Under the pieces are notes generated by a model. That model was not told where the DNA came from and searched no databases. It saw only the letters and a program-made list of their open reading frames with translations. This document shows positions 18,902 through 29,795 of a stretch of 64,000 nucleotides of DNA, piece after piece. Positions within the stretch are counted from its first letter, which is position 1; every line of letters begins with the position of its first letter. This DNA comes from Desulforamulus reducens MI-1 (GTDB taxonomy: Bacteria > Bacillota > Desulfotomaculia > Desulfotomaculales > Desulfotomaculaceae): the NCBI RefSeq assembly GCF_000016165.1, contig NC_009253.1, positions 1,522,332-1,586,331 of the forward strand. The letters are read 5' to 3'. Both the position numbers and the translations under genes were made by a program.

Positions 18902-20701
18902 GTGGCTATTGAACAAAACATTGAACTTTGGCGTAACAAAAGTCTCTCTGATTTTTGGTTAACCGGTAAAGGGTTAGATAATAACAAAAAGAGCAATGGG
19001 CAACCCTATGCCATGTTTAGTCATAAATTATTAGGTTCCGAAGACATGGATGCCCAGGCAATGGCTATGACCGCCATGCTGGGGGCTGTCTCTCGGGTGG
19101 TGGATATTGTCCATGGCAAACAAAAGTTTTCTGTTAATTTCAGTTCCAAAGAAACAAGAACTGATTTTGCAGCGAAGCAAATTGCCCTTAGTGCGGAACC
19201 CCTATTTAACCCACCACCGGGATATTTGATGCCGGACATTGTTGATGTGCTTACAGGGATGGCTCTACATGAAGCAGCCCATGCCCAGTTTAGTAAACCC
19301 GAATACTACACAGAAATGCCTGGTAACCCCTTTATGGCGGTGATTAGAAACGTGGTAGAGGATGTCTATATTGAGCAGCTTACATCCCTTTATTACCCTG
19401 GATATGCTGGTTACTTTTGGAAATACCGCCGTTACGAATTTGATCTAAATCCTGGGAAATGGTCGCATAAACCCAGTAAAGATTTAATGGAAAATGAATT
19501 AAATCTTCGCACCTCAGATTTCTTGTTGGTTATGCGTTCAACGAGAAATTATGTTTCCCAGGTGGCAAGGGTTAATAATGTAGCAGACCTTCTAAAAAAA
19601 ATTATTTATGTGGAAAAGCCTGCAAGGTTAGAGAAGTTAAATACCCGCACGGTGGCCAGAAGAATCTATAATGAGTTATTTGGTAACCTTATCCAACATG
19701 ACATTGCTTATTCCCTGCCCAGTTCTCTATTGGATTACAACAATCGGGGTAAACACCAGGCTGAATCAGGGAATACCAATAATACCAATAAGACCAACAT
19801 TCCCAGTGATCTGCAGAATTTAATACAAAACATGCGTCAGGAGCAACTGCAGGTTGCCAATATGAGTGAACTTATGGAAGCAGGTTTAGATCCAGATTAC
19901 CCGCCACCTCCCCCGCCAATGGTTGTTTTCAGGCGCCCATTAATGGACGAGGGGGCCATAGAGAGGTATGAGCAGGCCAGAAGTGCTGTTCAGCCCTTTG
20001 TTATTCGATTGCGAAATCGGTTAAGTTGGGCCAATACGCGGCAGGTGATTAATCAGTTTCAGCTGCCCAGTGGGGAATTGGATGAAGACTCCCTCTATCA
20101 GGCCAGCTATTCCAATCGAATCTTTCGACAGACAGAAATTATCAACACCAGAACAAGGAAGCTTGATATTTGCCTATTGGTGGATACCAGTGCTTCCATG
20201 GTATATCCTGCCGGAAAAGAAATTTCCAGGGTAGAATTGGCTCGAAATTTAGCAGCTCTTTTTGTGGAAGCCTTAGAACCAGTGGATTCCATTAAAACCT
20301 GGGTTTTTGGTTTTAATCTAAAAGGAGCCGTTAATATGTATGAACTCTACTCCCCGGCTTTACCCAATAAAGCACGGATTGGGGTAACTGGTGCCGAAGG
20401 GACAACGCCTGAGGGGACAGCTGTAAAATATGCTGCTTTAAGAATGATGGCAGAAGGTCGCCCCTTTGTACAAAAGGTTTTAATTGTCATTGCGGACGGA
20501 AATCCCAATCCTGGACCAGAAACCAAATTGGTTAAAGAACAAGTTAAGCGACTAAAGGCCCTGGGTTGCAAAACCATTAGCATTTTGCTGGGAGATCGCC
20601 CGCCAGAGTACGGCTATGAAAACAGTATTCCTTGGACTGACTACAATACGGTTACCACTGGGTTTGGACGGTTACTTAAAAAACTGGTGGAAGATAATTA
20701 A
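18902..20701 (+). CDS. VWA-domain protein with N-terminal HExxH motif
   Basis: 599 residues from GTG, with GGAGGTGAT just upstream. The N-terminal region contains ALHEAAHAQF (H123-E124-x-x-H127) and, 26 residues later, E153 in RNVVEDVYIEQL: a spacing compatible with a gluzincin-like zinc site. A Pro-rich stretch (DYPPPPPPM, about 335) separates it from a C-terminal von Willebrand A domain with a complete MIDAS start D428-T-S430-A-S432 and a later GTTPEGTA threonine loop. It is the expected partner of the MoxR ATPase upstream. Metal binding or protease activity is inferred from motif spacing only; related two-domain families (DUF2201-like) are known as putative metallopeptidases. Confidence 0.82.
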   Translation: MAIEQNIELWRNKSLSDFWLTGKGLDNNKKSNGQPYAMFSHKLLGSEDMDAQAMAMTAMLGAVSRVVDIVHGKQKFSVNFSSKETRTDFAAKQIALSAEPLFNPPPGYLMPDIVDVLTGMALHEAAHAQFSKPEYYTEMPGNPFMAVIRNVVEDVYIEQLTSLYYPGYAGYFWKYRRYEFDLNPGKWSHKPSKDLMENELNLRTSDFLLVMRSTRNYVSQVARVNNVADLLKKIIYVEKPARLEKLNTRTVARRIYNELFGNLIQHDIAYSLPSSLLDYNNRGKHQAESGNTNNTNKTNIPSDLQNLIQNMRQEQLQVANMSELMEAGLDPDYPPPPPPMVVFRRPLMDEGAIERYEQARSAVQPFVIRLRNRLSWANTRQVINQFQLPSGELDEDSLYQASYSNRIFRQTEIINTRTRKLDICLLVDTSASMVYPAGKEISRVELARNLAALFVEALEPVDSIKTWVFGFNLKGAVNMYELYSPALPNKARIGVTGAEGTTPEGTAVKYAALRMMAEGRPFVQKVLIVIADGNPNPGPETKLVKEQVKRLKALGCKTISILLGDRPPEYGYENSIPWTDYNTVTTGFGRLLKKLVEDN

Positions 20702-20746: not shown

Positions 20747-21127
20747 TGTGAAATGGCTATTTGTCATAAAGAATGAATCGATGTTGCTTTTAGAATATCT
20801 TGTTAGTCTAAACAAATTTCAAATAAACTATAAATAATTATCCAAAGGAATAAAACCATTTTTACTATTTCAAGCGTAATGACAAATAAAATATGTCACA
20901 TGGGATGCAAACTGCAATGATGTCGAATTACTAGTGAAAAAAACCAAAAACATAATACATTTCTAAAAAATATCTTTTAAAACACTTGAAATTAAAAAAA
21001 GCTTTTGATAGCATAACCGCAAATAGATAATGACAAAGAAGATATAAAATGACATTAATTTATTATTTTAAAAAAAGAACTTTCGGCATATTTTATCTTG
21101 AAATCTGTGGTATAGGGGGTGAAGTTT
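20747..21127. other. AT-rich intergenic region with TGACA/TGTCA motifs
   Basis: No credible gene. It contains an inverted pair TGACA-N9-TGTCA at 20880-20898 whose inner AT dinucleotides are also symmetric, and further TGACA copies at 21031 (TGACAAA) and 21050. The same half-site recurs upstream of both TSUP genes. I see no clear -35/-10 pair. Confidence 0.45.
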
Positions 21128-22498
21128 ATGTTTTTCCGTAAAATTACCACTAAGAAAAATGGCAGGGAATACGTTTATGTTAAATTAATTGAAAATTACC
21201 GCCAGGCGGGTAAAGTAAAACAACGAGTAATTGCGAATTTTGGCAGTATGGAAAACCTATCTGCAGACAGGATTAACTACTTAATTGCAAGCTTGAAAAA
21301 ACTTCACAATGAAGTTACCACCTCGTCCAATGATGAAATACCTTTGGAACTTTTAACAAAGGCAAATGATATTAAAGATGTAATCAAGAATTGTCAGATC
21401 AAGAGGTCGATGTTACCAATATTTGGAGAAACAATGTATGAAATAGCCGAGGCAATGCTTTTAAAGGCAATTATGGCGGGTGAAGTGAAGAAACCTGTAC
21501 AAGAAGTATGTAAAGATTTAGGACTTGTAGAATCAACCAGTTTGCAATTTTATAACATCATGAAAAGACTTGGTCAGAGTGATGTCAAAGAGGCTTTGCT
21601 AAAAAATAGGATATTTTTTGAAAGTGGTAATGAAAACAATCACAAGATAACAATAATTCATATTTTTAAAAGTTATTTTGAGGGTCAGTCCTTTAATGTG
21701 GATACCACCAACAATGTTTATCTCCCGGAGAACTATAGAAAACCAATATACATTGCAATGGCTTTAAATTACCAAGGGAAACTGCTGGATTATGAATGTG
21801 CCGAAGAAATAAAGGAAGTACCTGGGCTAGTTAATTGCTTGTTCAGCAAGTTTAAAAAATACCTTAATGGAGAATTTGTTGTGTTAGATGAAGAGAATTG
21901 TATAAAAAGATCCACAGGTTTTCTAGTAGCAAAAAAAATTCTTGAGAATTCAAACCAATTGACTATTGAGGATGAAAAGGTTCTTAAGACTAACCGTTAT
22001 AGCCAAATCAGTGATAACAAAATAAAAGAAATAAAAGCTAGATTAGCTAGGGTATCAGCTGGCTTAGAAACTCTAAAAGCGGATGTACTGGTGGGAAAGA
22101 TCAAAAAGGAAACGATGATCAGGAAGAAGGCCGAGCAGGTAATTAAAACAAATCAATGTGAGGGTTTAGTATCTTATAACTATAGTGAGGCTAAACAGCT
22201 TTTTAGCTATTCTGTTAAAGAGGAAATACTAAAGCAAAAACAACACACTCGCAGTCAAGAACTTTGGAGGGTAGCAGGGCCAATGATTGGTAAAATTAAA
22301 GACCTAAACGATTTGCATATACAAACAGACCAATTTTATCAAATAACTGATCAATTAAATATACCTCCCATTAACCTGTATGTTGATTATCATTACTCAC
22401 CAGAAATCATCTCGGGTCACATCCAACTCGAGATATTAAAAGCTCAAGTAAAAAGTGCAATGAAGCAAATTGGTCTAGGGGGTGATGCAATCATTTAA
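21128..22498 (+). CDS. IS1634/IS4-type transposase-derived protein
   Basis: 456 residues; ATG 21128 is preferred because GGGGGTGA precedes it. The N-terminus (FFRKITTKKNGREYVYVKL, then ENYRQAGKVKQRVIANFG) is the hallmark start of IS1634-type IS4 superfamily transposases. The middle has FNVDTTNNVYLP, resembling the first catalytic Asp block, and VIKTNQCEGLVSYNY resembling a later block, but the family's Y-R-E-K signature is not visible and the protein is about 100 residues short. No terminal inverted repeats or target duplications were found around it. It is either a decayed element that is still open or a domesticated transposase. It precedes the first TSUP gene by 140 bases on the same strand. 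Confidence 0.6.
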   Translation: MFFRKITTKKNGREYVYVKLIENYRQAGKVKQRVIANFGSMENLSADRINYLIASLKKLHNEVTTSSNDEIPLELLTKANDIKDVIKNCQIKRSMLPIFGETMYEIAEAMLLKAIMAGEVKKPVQEVCKDLGLVESTSLQFYNIMKRLGQSDVKEALLKNRIFFESGNENNHKITIIHIFKSYFEGQSFNVDTTNNVYLPENYRKPIYIAMALNYQGKLLDYECAEEIKEVPGLVNCLFSKFKKYLNGEFVVLDEENCIKRSTGFLVAKKILENSNQLTIEDEKVLKTNRYSQISDNKIKEIKARLARVSAGLETLKADVLVGKIKKETMIRKKAEQVIKTNQCEGLVSYNYSEAKQLFSYSVKEEILKQKQHTRSQELWRVAGPMIGKIKDLNDLHIQTDQFYQITDQLNIPPINLYVDYHYSPEIISGHIQLEILKAQVKSAMKQIGLGGDAII

Positions 22499-22641: not shown

Positions 22642-23922
22642 ATGCGGGGTTTGTACGAAGCGTTAATGTCCGCATCCAGGGCCCATGCTAAATGGGAATT
22701 GGAAATGTCCAATAATATTATACGAAACCGAAAACATCTGCTGGTTTTAGCTCTTATGATGCTTCCATTAGTTATTCCTGCCATTGGTCATGCTGCGGAT
22801 TTACCGGGATTTATCGGTGGTAAAAGTGCCTATGGACCATCCCACTATAATCCGATGATGTTCTACGGTTCCATGGCAGTTGGTATTTGTGCGGGGTTAA
22901 TTACTGGCTGCATTGGTGCTGGCGGTGGTTTTGTTATTACGCCAGCCCTAATGAGTCTAGGAGTAAAAGGTATTTTAGCAGTTGGAACAGACCAATTTCA
23001 TATTTTTGCAAAGGCCATCATGGGTACCGTAATTCATAAAAAATTGGGTAACGTAAATGTGGCTCTTGCTATAGCTTTCTTAGTTGGTTCCGGTATCGGT
23101 GTTACCGCGGGTGGTACATTAAACCGCGCACTGTTTAATATGAACCCAGTGTTGAGTGATTTTATTATTAGCTTAGTTTATGTTGTTATGCTAGGATTCT
23201 TAGGGTTCTATTCCATGTACGACTTTATTAAAAACAAAAACACCAGTGGAGATGCCCATGGTGGGCCAGAAGGTATGACAAAATTAGCACAGAAACTACA
23301 AGGGGTTAATATCGCCCCTATGGTTAAGTTTGATGAAGATATTGTTCCTGGTGGTCGTAAAATTTCCGGTTGGTTTGTGGCCTTCTGTGGTGCAGTGGTT
23401 GGTTTTGCAGCAGCTATTATGGGTGTAGGCGGTGGCTTCCTGACCTTTCCAATGTTTGTTTACGGTCTAGGCGTATCCTCCTTTACCACAGTGGGTACAG
23501 ACATTCTGCAAATTATCTTTACTGCGGGCTACAGTTCCATAGCTCAGTACGCTGTTTACGGTTATATATTTTATACATTGGCTATGGGTATGTTGGTTGG
23601 TTCCCTACTGGGCATTCAGATTGGTGCAGCTACCACAAAGGTGGTTTCTGGTATCTATATCCGCGCTTTCTATGCCATTGCCATAATGGCCGGTTTTGTA
23701 AACAGAGCATTTGCGCTGCCTGAAAAAATGGCTCAGATGGGGTACATCTCTATAGCGAAGGAAAATGGCGTATTATTTTCCAATATCGGTGCCTGGGTAT
23801 TCTTTGGGTTAATTCTAATCTTTGCAGTATGGATTATCCTAAGCTTTATCCGAGGTCTTCCTATCCTGCGAGCTGAAACTGCCGAAGCGTCTATGGCTAG
23901 TGGTAAAGGAGTGAGTCATTAA
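22642..23922 (+). CDS. TSUP (TauE/SafE) family permease, copy 1
   Basis: 426 residues with AAGGAGG before the ATG. A conserved polar N-terminal segment (MRGLYEALMSASRAHAKWE) precedes the first hydrophobic helix. The two TSUP half-repeats are visible: GLITGCIGAGGGFVITPALM (about 91-110) and AAIMGVGGGFLTFPMFVYGLG (about 255-275), each followed by GTD (VGTDQFHIF and VGTDILQII). TSUP proteins move sulfur oxyanions or small organosulfur compounds across the membrane; in this setting sulfate or sulfite is plausible but not shown. The stop overlaps the next gene by one base (TAATG). The same pair recurs at 25392. Confidence 0.9.
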   Translation: MRGLYEALMSASRAHAKWELEMSNNIIRNRKHLLVLALMMLPLVIPAIGHAADLPGFIGGKSAYGPSHYNPMMFYGSMAVGICAGLITGCIGAGGGFVITPALMSLGVKGILAVGTDQFHIFAKAIMGTVIHKKLGNVNVALAIAFLVGSGIGVTAGGTLNRALFNMNPVLSDFIISLVYVVMLGFLGFYSMYDFIKNKNTSGDAHGGPEGMTKLAQKLQGVNIAPMVKFDEDIVPGGRKISGWFVAFCGAVVGFAAAIMGVGGGFLTFPMFVYGLGVSSFTTVGTDILQIIFTAGYSSIAQYAVYGYIFYTLAMGMLVGSLLGIQIGAATTKVVSGIYIRAFYAIAIMAGFVNRAFALPEKMAQMGYISIAKENGVLFSNIGAWVFFGLILIFAVWIILSFIRGLPILRAETAEASMASGKGVSH

Positions 23923-24638
23923 TGATTAGAGATACCAAAGCATTTTTTATCGGGCTTATTATGCTTGTATCTTTCATGGGAGTTTATGCCTACATGATGA
24001 GTCCTTCCTTTGGCAATGGTAGAAACGGTTTGGAATTTGCCGACGATATGTTTAACTCCATATCCAAAGGATCTGTTTATGATGTAATCCAGAGTGAAAT
24101 TAAAAAGGTTGATAAGTGGAATGGTGACATAATTAATGTGACATTAAATTGCCAAGACGTGTCCCAGGCTGACAGATGGTCAAATGCCTTACAAAAGGTA
24201 GAGGGCGCAGAGGTCAGTGTAGACAAGGAAAAGGTTGCCTTTAAAGGAGACCTGGGGTTATTGTTAACCAATATTTCTCAAGACTGCACCAACATGTTCG
24301 ATAATAACGGAGATGTAGTAAAGCAAAAGTACAATACTGACCCAAGGGATGCTACTAATCGGTGGTATAGTATCACCAAAGCCATGGTTAAAGATTTAGA
24401 AAAACAGGAGAAGTTTAAGGAGTCTGTTGCTATTCAGCAATACCAGAAAAAAGTAATTGAACCAGCTTATAATTATTATGGTGTGGATGCCAAACAGGTG
24501 GCCGATAACAAGGGTGTTATGACCTTTATGATGGTTTTCTACCTGGTGTATACGCTCTGGTATGGTTTTGCTATCTACTACCTCTGTCAGGGCCTTGGCA
24601 TTACCATGAGCAAATCTGGCAAAAAACAAGAAGCTTAA
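23922..24638 (+). CDS. Bitopic membrane partner of TSUP permease, copy 1
   Basis: 238 residues. One N-terminal membrane helix (about 8-26, FFIGLIMLVSFMGVYAYMM) and one C-terminal helix (about 203-226, GVMTFMMVFYLVYTLWYGFAIYYL) flank a ~175-residue soluble domain, which by the anchor polarity is probably extracytoplasmic. Two cysteines (LNCQD and QDCTN) are conserved in the second copy (LECKD, EDCVA) and could form a disulfide or bind metal. The first helix is followed by SPSFGNGRNGLEFADDMFNS, nearly invariant between copies. No recognised family; translational coupling to the permease implies a subunit or substrate-binding accessory. Confidence 0.75.
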   Translation: MIRDTKAFFIGLIMLVSFMGVYAYMMSPSFGNGRNGLEFADDMFNSISKGSVYDVIQSEIKKVDKWNGDIINVTLNCQDVSQADRWSNALQKVEGAEVSVDKEKVAFKGDLGLLLTNISQDCTNMFDNNGDVVKQKYNTDPRDATNRWYSITKAMVKDLEKQEKFKESVAIQQYQKKVIEPAYNYYGVDAKQVADNKGVMTFMMVFYLVYTLWYGFAIYYLCQGLGITMSKSGKKQEA

Positions 24639-24645
24639 TCGTTTT

Positions 24646-24680
24646 AAAAAGGCATTCCCTAGAAGGAGTGCCTTTTCTTT
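24646..24680 (+). terminator. Terminator of TSUP module 1
   Basis: AAAAGGCATTCC pairs with GGAGTGCCTTTT (one mismatch) over a six-base loop and is followed by CTTTG; typical Rho-independent form. Confidence 0.8.
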
Positions 24681-25391
24681 GCATTTAAGAGAGATCTGAA
24701 AATTTCTTTTGTGGCTAAGTTTGACATCATAACAAACTTATTTTTGTCAATAACTTTCCCCTTTTTCTAGTTGGAATTGTTTGTTTGCAGGTAGAAAAAA
24801 TAGAAAAGAAAAAAACCAACGAAGTAATATACTGTAAACTTCTTGTAAGAAATGACAAAGATAATCGTTCATATTATTATAAATGTATTATTTAGGCTGA
24901 TTTCATAGTGACAAAACCAGCAAGGCAGAAAAAAATAATTAATTTCAGTAAAAAAACTCTTGCCATTATAAAACCTTTTTGCTACTATTTGCACAAGTTA
25001 AAGGATAAAGCAATATAGTAGCAAATGTTGGTCGATATTAATGAAACTAAAGCAAATATAGAAATAGACCGCCACCAGATATTAACCGATCTGCTTTATA
25101 CCAACTATTAAACACGGGCACCAGTACTCGATAATAACAAACCCAAATAACCTCCAATCAAAAAGTCTTGGAGGTTAATAAAACAAAATAAATAATTTTC
25201 CCCAAAACACATAAAGGAGGTGATTTCAAAACAGTATTAATTTATCAATACATTTTTTCTAATTTGGATTTTAGCACATTGTCTTGCACTAATCAATACG
25301 TTAGCTTGCGTTTTCACGAAATTTTGTCATTACAGTTTATTCAACCATAAGCACCTTTTACACTAAACATTGATTGAAGGGGGTTGTCTGC
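24681..25391. promoter_or_regulatory. 710-bp AT-rich leader between the two TSUP modules
   Basis: No supportable gene. It carries repeated TGACAAA/TTTGTCA half-sites: TTTGACA (24720), TTTGTCA (24743), TGACAAA (24853), TGACAAA (24909) and TTTGTCA (25323, about 65 bases before the second TSUP start). A perfect hairpin TAACCTCCAA/TTGGAGGTTA lies at 25149-25177. An almost full-length anti-16S sequence AAAGGAGGTGAT (25213-25224) is present with no start codon at a useful distance. The length and the motif content suggest regulated transcription of module 2 rather than read-through. Confidence 0.5.
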
Positions 25392-26678
25392 ATGAGGGGA
25401 TTATATGAGGTTCTAATGAGTGCCTCCAGAGCCCATGCGAAATGGGAACTGGAGATGTCCAATAATATCATAAGAAGCCGGAAACACCTATTAGTTTTAC
25501 TCGTTATGTGTTTACCATTAATTATACCGGCCATTGGTTATGCCGCTGAATTACCATCCTTCCTGGGAGGTAAAAGTGCCTTTGGACCGTCCCATTTTAC
25601 TCCACTGATGTTTTATGGATCTATGGCGGTGGGTGTCTGTGCTGGTCTCATTACAGGTTGTATCGGTGCTGGAGGTGGCTTTGTTATAACGCCAGCCCTG
25701 ATGAGCCTAGGTGTAAAAGGAATTCTGGCGGTAGGTACCGACCAGTTTCACATCTTTGCGAAGGCTATCATGGGCACTGTTATTCACAAAAAGCTAGGAA
25801 ACGTCAATGTATCCCTGGCTATCGCTTTCCTGGTAGGTTCTGGAATTGGTGTTACTGGTGGCGGCACCTTGAACCGTGCCCTGTTTAATGCGAACCCTGT
25901 TATGAGCGACTTTGTCATTAGTACGATTTATGTGGTTATCTTAGGATTTCTTGGTTTCTATTCCATGTATGACTTTCTTAAAACCAGAGGGCAAATTGAT
26001 AAGGGGGATGCCCATGGTGGTCCTGTCGGTATGACTGGACTTGCACGGAAGTTGCAGAGTATTAACTTGGCTCCCATGATTAAGTTTGATGAAGAAATTA
26101 CCCCTGGCGGTCGTAAAATCTCCGGTTGGTTTGTGACCCTATGCGGCTGCGTTACTGGCTTTCTGGCAGCCATCATGGGCGTAGGCGGTGGATTTGTTAC
26201 CTTCCCAATGTTTGTTTACGGCTTGGGGGTTTCTTCCTTCACTACAGTGGGAACAGATATCCTGCAGATCATCTTCACCGCCGGCTACAGCTCCATCACT
26301 CAATATGCTATCTACGGCTATATCTTCTACACCCTGGCCATGGGGATGCTGGTTGGTTCCCTGCTGGGTATCCAAATTGGGGCAGCCACCACCAAGGTCG
26401 TTCCAGGTATCTACATCAGAGCTTTCTACGCAATTGCCATCATGGCTGGTTTTGTCAACAGAGCCTTTGCTCTGCCGGAGAAAATGGGACAAATGGGATA
26501 TATTTCTATCACCAAAGAAACTGGGGTGCTGCTTAACAGCATAGGAACTTGGATCTTCTTTGGATTAATATTACTTTTTGCTGGCTGGATAGTTATCAGT
26601 TTTGTCAAGGGGCTACCCACCTTACGGGCTGAAACTGCCAAAACTTCTGTATCCGATGGAAAAGGAGTGAGCCACTAA
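25392..26678 (+). CDS. TSUP (TauE/SafE) family permease, copy 2
   Basis: 428 residues from ATG 25392; an in-frame TTG at 25374 is less likely because AAGGGGG lies between the two. Protein sequence is nearly the same as copy 1 along its whole length, including the polar N-terminus MRGLYEVLMSASRAHAKWE, both GxGGGF half-repeats and both VGTD motifs. The DNA differs at very many synonymous positions, so the duplication is old and both copies have been kept under protein-level selection. Small differences lie in the central cytoplasmic loop (an extra charged segment around KTRGQIDKGDAHGG) and at the C-terminus. Stop overlaps the partner gene by one base, as in copy 1. Confidence 0.9.
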   Translation: MRGLYEVLMSASRAHAKWELEMSNNIIRSRKHLLVLLVMCLPLIIPAIGYAAELPSFLGGKSAFGPSHFTPLMFYGSMAVGVCAGLITGCIGAGGGFVITPALMSLGVKGILAVGTDQFHIFAKAIMGTVIHKKLGNVNVSLAIAFLVGSGIGVTGGGTLNRALFNANPVMSDFVISTIYVVILGFLGFYSMYDFLKTRGQIDKGDAHGGPVGMTGLARKLQSINLAPMIKFDEEITPGGRKISGWFVTLCGCVTGFLAAIMGVGGGFVTFPMFVYGLGVSSFTTVGTDILQIIFTAGYSSITQYAIYGYIFYTLAMGMLVGSLLGIQIGAATTKVVPGIYIRAFYAIAIMAGFVNRAFALPEKMGQMGYISITKETGVLLNSIGTWIFFGLILLFAGWIVISFVKGLPTLRAETAKTSVSDGKGVSH

Positions 26679-27391
26679 TGATAAGAGATAGTAAATCATT
26701 TTTAATCGGGATCATTATGTTAATATCCTTTATGGGAATTTACCTCTATATGATGAGCCCATCCTTTGGCAACGGCAGAAACGGTTTGGAATTTGCCGAT
26801 GATATGTTTAACTCCATCTCCAAAGGGTCTGCCCAAGCGGTTGTTCAAGGTGAGGTAAAAAAGGCTGAAAAATGGAATGGCACTAACATTGAAGTGAACC
26901 TTGAGTGCAAAGATGAAGACCAGGCTGAAAGATGGTCTGCGGCCTTGCAAAAGGTTGATGGCACAGTGGTTAGTGTTGATAAAGAAAAACTTTCTTTAAA
27001 GACTGATTTTGGTAAAATGCTGGCTAATATCTCTGAAGATTGCGTGGCCATGTATGAGAATAAAGGTGATGTAATCCAGCAGAAATATAATACTGACCCC
27101 AGGGATGCTATAAACCGTTGGTATAGCATAAGCAAAGCCATTGGTAAAAATCTAGAAAAACAGCAAAGGTTTAAAGAGTCTATTTATTTACAAACCTATC
27201 AGAAGAAAGTTATCGAGCCGGCGTATAACTACTATGGTGTGGAAACCAAGTTTGTCAGTGACAACAAAGGGGTCATGACCTTCATGCTGGTCTTCTATAT
27301 GGTGTACACCCTTTGGTACGGGTTTGCAATCTACTATATCTGTGGAGGTCTTGGTATTACTATGACCAAGACTGCTAAAAAAGAAGCATAA
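26678..27391 (+). CDS. Bitopic membrane partner of TSUP permease, copy 2
   Basis: 237 residues, paralogue of the protein at 23922. Same plan: N-terminal helix (about 8-26), soluble middle with the two conserved Cys (LECKD, EDCVA), block NTDPRDAINRWYSISKA, block KKVIEPAYNYYGVE, and C-terminal helix (about 203-226). The soluble domain has diverged more than the helices, especially around residues 50-110, which could mean a different ligand. Coupled to the permease by a one-base overlap. Confidence 0.75.
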   Translation: MIRDSKSFLIGIIMLISFMGIYLYMMSPSFGNGRNGLEFADDMFNSISKGSAQAVVQGEVKKAEKWNGTNIEVNLECKDEDQAERWSAALQKVDGTVVSVDKEKLSLKTDFGKMLANISEDCVAMYENKGDVIQQKYNTDPRDAINRWYSISKAIGKNLEKQQRFKESIYLQTYQKKVIEPAYNYYGVETKFVSDNKGVMTFMLVFYMVYTLWYGFAIYYICGGLGITMTKTAKKEA

Positions 27392-27400
27392 AGATTTTCT

Positions 27401-27433
27401 AAAACACCCTGTGCCTGCCAGGGTGTTTTTTTT
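27401..27433 (+). terminator. Terminator of TSUP module 2
   Basis: AACACCCTG (27403-27411) pairs with CAGGGTGTT (27419-27427) and runs into eight T. Confidence 0.9.
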
Positions 27434-29039: not shown

Positions 29040-29795
29040 TTGGTTGAATTAACTAATCAAGCAATTAAATTAGCAAAAAGACAAGCCCAACTTGTTTACT
29101 TGGATATTACTGAACGAGAAGTTCAGGTTATGGCATCCCATAAAGAATTATTTATACGTGAAGCCCAAACAGTTGTTGACGAGTTTTATAAGCATGTTTT
29201 ACAGTTTACCTATTTAAAAGAACTCCTTAACAAACATAGTACAGTAGAGCGATTAAAAGAGACCCAAAAAAATTACTTTATTTCCTTGTGTGATCCCATT
29301 GATGAAGCGTATATTGAGAGAAGACTGGCCATTGGTAAAAAACATCAAGAAATAGGATTATACCCCAAATGGTATTTGGGATCTTATCAAATTTACACTG
29401 CCCAGATCCAACGTATCTTATCTGGCCATCATGGTAGTTGTACCGATAGCAATGCTGAGGCATTGCAGGCCTTTATGAAAAGAATAAACCTAGATATGCA
29501 GTTGGCCATAGAAAACTATATACTAGACCAACTGCAGCAACTAATTTCCTTCCAACAGGATATTGGTTCTGTGGCAGAAATCATCGACGACATCGCGGAA
29601 CAAACCAATATGCTTTCCCTAAATGCTTCCATTGAAGCGGCCAGGGCAGGTGATCATGGTCGGACGTTTGCTGTGGTGGCGCAAGAAGTGAGGAAATTGG
29701 CAGAAAGATCTTCTCAATCGGCAAAGGATATTGCTCAAATGGTACTTTCTAACCAGCAGGTCATTGAAAAAATGAAGAAGACAGCCGATGAATAG
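29040..29795 (+). CDS. Soluble protoglobin (globin-coupled) sensor with short MCP-type signalling tip
   Basis: 251 residues from TTG, with AAGGAGG eight bases upstream. Residues ~1-165 are a protoglobin/HemAT-type heme domain; H102 in [15 protein letters not shown] is at the proximal heme ligand position. Residues ~180-240 contain the receptor hairpin tip [20 protein letters not shown] followed by [15 protein letters not shown]. No transmembrane segment. The signalling part is only ~80 residues, far shorter than a full MCP bundle, so it may form a minimal CheA/CheW contact or have another output. Likely an oxygen or redox sensor in an anaerobe. Monocistronic with its own terminator. Confidence 0.85.

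Follow-up and report, generated by a model that had tools for sequence, protein, structure and literature searches.

A TSUP permease subfamily with a dedicated membrane-anchored partner, a candidate sulfur-oxyanion transporter of Gram-positive sulfate reducers

Layout and history of the two units

Two tandem gene pairs, each composed of a TSUP permease gene and a gene for a smaller partner protein, are located downstream of a transposase-like gene (tnp*) in the window, the 64,000-nucleotide stretch C1:1522332-1586331 of the complete 3,608,104-bp genome of Desulforamulus reducens MI-1. The features are as follows.

21119-22498, + strand: tnp*, 459 aa, IS1634-derived, catalytic residues lost; directly 5' of unit 1
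22642-23922, + strand: TSUP permease copy 1 (TSUP1), 426 aa; PF01925 TauE, E 2.9e-35, 122.5 bits
23922-24638, + strand: partner copy 1, 238 aa; two membrane helices and an extracytoplasmic domain (predicted)
24647-24676, + strand: intrinsic terminator 3' of unit 1, called by the terminator scan; 12-pair stem and T run
24677-25391, + strand: intergenic stretch of ~700 bp 5' of copy 2; no detectable tnp* remnant
25392-26678, + strand: TSUP permease copy 2 (TSUP2), 428 aa; PF01925, E 4.7e-35, 121.8 bits
26678-27391, + strand: partner copy 2, 237 aa; AlphaFold2 pLDDT 92
27401-27433, + strand: terminator-like hairpin 3' of unit 2, AAAACACCCT...AGGGTGTTTT followed by a T run; found by eye

The wider surroundings include a gene for a 599-aa VWA-domain protein upstream of the module (18902-20701, + strand), with a similar 599-aa gene at the same position in D. 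aeronauticus (L023:763-2562), and, just downstream, a short globin-coupled sensor of 251 aa with a protoglobin domain and a chemoreceptor signalling domain (29040-29795, + strand).

The arrangement given by the initial annotation, two units of permease and partner joined by a one-base overlap, is borne out by the sequence, in which the final A of the TSUP stop codon TAA is also the first base of the partner ATG in both units. The TSUP2 start was taken to be the ATG at 25392, with the TTG chosen by the ORF caller lying further upstream at 25374. Together with an AGGAG Shine-Dalgarno sequence for the partner, which in both units lies inside the last TSUP codons (GKGVSH), the overlap is as expected for translational coupling, and the two genes of a unit would be co-transcribed and translationally coupled. 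Of the terminators that had been ascribed to both units, the one behind unit 1 was called by the scan, while the hairpin behind unit 2 (10-bp stem, 9-base loop, T run) was recognized by eye where the scan made no call; overall, the scan found no more terminators than in shuffled sequences. No riboswitch was found 5' of copy 2, and no similarity was detectable between the promoter regions of the two units.

The two permeases share 84% protein and 75% DNA identity and the two partners 72% protein and 74% DNA identity, so that their description as nearly the same is apt for the TSUP proteins and overstated for the partners. Both proteins are under purifying selection, with a dN/dS between the copies of ~0.04 for TSUP and ~0.08 for the partner at a dS near saturation. 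The soluble part of the partner (64% identity) has diverged more than its two anchors (86% and 81%), as had been noticed initially.

In the TSUP tree as in the partner tree, the second copies cluster together, and dispersed third copies, found in other species and absent from D. reducens, make up a separate group; the first copies are grouped in the partner tree with weak support and form no firm group in the TSUP tree. Permease and partner thus have a common history, agreeing on the copy-2 and copy-3 clades, and these copy-wise clades in both trees indicate a tandem duplication older than the radiation of the genus. The two units of D. reducens would descend from this duplication and now stand behind unrelated promoter regions. 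As these regions are dissimilar and the copies have been held apart since before the genus radiation, it is plausible that copies 1 and 2 differ in expression.

The partner protein and its TSUP permease

The partner had been called unstudied, and comparison with profile databases agrees, as it matches no known family: no hit was obtained in Pfam, NCBIfam or PHROGs, and none among PDB sequences. The AlphaFold2 model (61 sequences; pLDDT 92.1, pTM 0.77) places membrane helices at residues 5-26 and 197-225, so that the protein, initially described as bitopic, is predicted to be a hairpin. Between the membrane helices the model shows a long helix (36-66), a small beta-alpha-beta-beta core (70-110) and four helices (111-184), while ~12 residues follow the second membrane helix. 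Both tails are positively charged, from which the domain of ~150 residues is predicted to be located outside the cell.

A Foldseek search of the PDB with the full-length model returned nothing at E<=0.001, and the best full-length VIA-align match had a Z of 5.5, which is within the range of common arrangements. Pcc1/Pcc2, bestrophin helices and a recycling factor were considered as relatives and dismissed, since the structural matches are partial and weak. The predicted model has no clear structural relative among the structures searched, which is not proof of a new fold. Two cysteines of the soluble domain had been regarded as conserved; across 61 partners C77 occurs in nine, C122 in 21 and both together in nine, so that they are no family feature, and a redox or disulfide role was rejected.

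CbiN and NikN, auxiliary subunits of cobalt and nickel transporters of about 100 aa, likewise consist of two membrane helices with an extracytoplasmic part between them (predicted in the case of the partner) and are encoded beside the channel protein; the partner is considerably larger with 237 aa, has no CbiN match at E<=1 in Pfam-A and NCBIfam, and no metal-transport genes were seen. In TsuA-TsuB (thiosulfate) and SbtA-SbtB (bicarbonate) an anion permease is also encoded alongside a dedicated small partner, which is, however, soluble and cytosolic, whereas the partner described here is predicted to be membrane-anchored with its domain outside.

The permeases cover positions 2-233 of the 237 of the PF01925 profile at scores far over the gathering score of 32.6 bits. 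Their two homologous halves carry GGG...GTD repeats, GCIGAGGGFVITP...AVGTDQF and AIMGVGGGFLTFP...TVGTDIL, which are invariant or nearly so in the alignment. The other two TSUP proteins of D. reducens, which have no partner, reach 175 and 152 bits compared to 740+ bits within this subfamily. To our knowledge, no TSUP protein with an obligate membrane partner has been described before. TSUP substrates are diverse, and sulfite export is the best-known function. The TSUP (TauE/SafE, PF01925) permeases include CysZ of Corynebacterium glutamicum and TauE of Cupriavidus necator, the latter a reported sulfite exporter; TSUPs are numerous in sulfate reducers, and those of the CysZ type have been proposed as sulfate transporters (Marietou et al., 2018; PMC5840216). 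With the TSUPs of this survey the present subfamily shares the Pfam family and the two GGG...GTD repeats, but it is longer (420-455 aa), possesses a long middle loop as well as a conserved N-terminal extension of ~75 residues, and in every case the partner gene follows it. No mention of the partner was found in the text of the survey.

Distribution, genomic neighbourhood and the upstream transposase relative

A profile search detected the partner in 51 of the 113 genomes and 28 of the 55 genera of the order, and, in samples of 249 and 200 genomes of the phylum, in none outside the order. The genome searches were confined to this phylum; in addition, a scan of genome contigs with tight peptide patterns, which would miss distant relatives, retrieved only close relatives, among them Desulforamulus putei and D. 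aeronauticus, and no relative of the partner was found in the viral library or on plasmids. That the partner is tied to a TSUP permease is upheld throughout the order. A TSUP ORF lies immediately 5' of each of the 61 distinct partners inspected, in the same orientation (~420-470 codons, with uncertain start sites; gap to the partner -4 to +79 bp), the opposite of the absence next to TSUP genes in relatives that would have spoken against the initial proposal. Conversely, the TSUP subfamily (E<=1e-80) is present in 50 of the 113 genomes, all among the 51 with a partner, and in the one partner genome lacking it, the partner is a fragment located where a contig begins. A TSUP search of 398 genomes of the phylum revealed one further carrier, of another class (G434), with the pair at L133:5061-7078 separated by an 8-bp gap; being present in one of the 29 genomes of that class, it may reflect lateral transfer or contamination. 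That permease and partner work together is best supported by this strict one-to-one relation.

The pair is associated with sulfate reduction. Of the 51 partner genomes, 50 contain dsrA (TIGR02064, scored above the curated cut-off), compared to 25 of the 62 other genomes of the order, an association confounded by shared ancestry, for which the Fisher p = 4.6e-12, uncorrected for kinship, is only descriptive. The single partner genome under the cut-off is 70% complete and contains a dsrA fragment. On the other hand, the 25 dsrA-positive genomes without the pair indicate that sulfate reduction can do without it. When SulP is scored at E<=1e-20, 22 of the dsrA-positive genomes of the order possess pair and SulP, 28 the pair only, two SulP only and 23 neither. 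A role of the pair as a simple replacement of SulP is consequently rejected, as the two occur together more than apart, and the 23 genomes with neither suggest that other solutions exist besides the pair.

With respect to neighbouring genes, the pair and a CBS-domain gene converge in two genomes (G280, G281) on a cluster that contains the 3' part of aprA, qmoA, qmoB, hdrC and hdrB, qmoA and qmoB being our assignment of HdrA-like genes. In a third genome (G311) hdrB/hdrC and a piece of qmoB lie ~5-7 kb from the pair, and in several genomes of one family (f115) the pair is found ~25 kb from dsrA. In D. reducens the apr-qmo-hdr set is Dred_0633-0639, beside sat (PMC4759654); this set lies away from the window, and the pair is not adjacent to sat, apr or qmo. 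No mention of the pair as TauE or DUF81 was found in the main texts of the D. reducens proteome papers.

A DASS symporter gene (PF00939, TIGR00785) is located in the fetched flank of 18 of the 39 long loci outside the Desulforamulus family, CBS-domain genes are near the pair in a similar share (L062:12062-12655, L068:6983-7525, L093, L087 and others) and USP genes in few loci (L028, L029, L086), all as raw tallies unadjusted for the frequency at random loci. CBS and USP domains bind nucleotides in other systems, and the proteins encoded here may sense nucleotides for the transporter. Several loci also share an acyl-CoA ligase gene close to the pair. A gene of ~146 aa with no Pfam or NCBIfam match also recurs (L068:12135-12575 and about a dozen other loci) and could be another element of the neighbourhood.

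The gene directly upstream of unit 1 is a further recurrent companion. Relatives of tnp* of 550 aa match the IS1634 family transposase profile NF033559 with 153-269 bits (cut-off 100); tnp* of the window has no direct match to this profile, but matches a profile of the 550-aa relatives (E 4.9e-34, hhalign 99.9%), and its predicted model (pLDDT 78) has the ISCth4 and Tn5 transposases as closest folds, by which tnp* descends from an IS1634-family transposase. In contrast to such transposases, the catalytic residues D1 and E3, which a multi-copy IS (L116) keeps, are replaced in every domesticated copy aligned, and tnp* occupies a fixed place beside the pair. It scores 420+ bits in 40 genomes, most of which have a single copy, or two where the pair is tandem, and in these 40 genomes mobile, multi-copy behaviour was not seen; real IS1634 copies score about 170 bits or less and are recurrent, with five equal-scoring matches in one genome (G303). 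Among the 32 genomes with both tnp* and the pair, 22 have tnp* immediately 5' of the pair and 26 have it at a distance of no more than 6 kb; in three others (G185, G283, G284) it is near qmo-hdr genes instead. Several relatives have tnp* at both tandem units, D. reducens at unit 1 only. An obvious guess is that tnp* acts as a DNA-binding regulator.

A probable two-subunit transporter and its alternatives

From pairing and topology we consider it probable that permease and partner are two subunits of one transporter. The TSUP protein would form the pore, and the two helices of the partner would anchor its domain on the outer face, where it may capture or gate the anion or stabilize the permease; the CBS- and USP-domain proteins encoded nearby in relatives might adjust the transporter to the energy state. 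Judged from genomic association, there is a slightly better than even chance that the two proteins, as obligate subunits, transport a sulfur oxyanion for dissimilatory sulfate reduction, and sulfate uptake, which we give about even chances, is the most likely task of the pair.

The direction of transport is not readable from sequence, and the main rival reading, to which we attach a distinctly minor probability, is that the pair exports sulfite, sulfide or some other sulfur species that is reduced or toxic, with the partner as outer-face gate or assembly factor. Such a function would be in line with characterized TSUPs such as Cupriavidus TauE, which export sulfite (PMC5840216), and SulP or DASS could handle uptake in many genomes; indeed, where the pair coexists with SulP (22 genomes) or, as many pairs do, lies near DASS, those proteins may perform sulfate uptake. 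Yet there is no known export need specific to the pair-bearing part of the sulfate reducers, and the loci converge on the sulfate-activation end of the pathway (aprA-qmo), besides the looser proximity to dsrA in one family.

The partner could also be a sensor or regulator, its outer domain sensing the anion and altering activity or stability of the permease, as its hairpin topology and helical extracytoplasmic domain are reminiscent of sensor ectodomains and CBS or USP genes are frequent neighbours. This appears unlikely, as the short stretch behind the second helix leaves the partner no signalling output domain of its own and a pure regulator would be expected to have been lost in some lineages, while the ratio is strictly one to one. 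Less likely still is the transport of another anion that these organisms use, such as an organosulfonate, thiosulfate or a carboxylate: the diversity of TSUP substrates, DASS neighbours that may carry dicarboxylates and the recurrent acyl-CoA ligase gene fit such a role, but no sulfonate-cleaving or thiosulfate genes were recognized among the neighbours read, and the pair is linked more directly to dsrA and apr-qmo.

A far-reaching combination, namely that the new two-subunit transporter is a main sulfate gate for dissimilatory sulfate reduction in Gram-positive sulfate reducers and that a nuclease-dead transposase, which this lineage has domesticated, binds next to sulfate-reduction loci and thereby controls or marks them, has a low probability. 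With the domesticated transposase, a third element is linked to the pair. Dissimilatory sulfate reduction begins with the uptake of sulfate. According to Marietou et al. (2018; PMC5840216), no studies have identified the proteins that perform it. Fixed to a new subunit and almost restricted to genomes with dsrA, the TSUP subfamily provides a concrete two-gene candidate for a sulfate, or sulfite, transporter.
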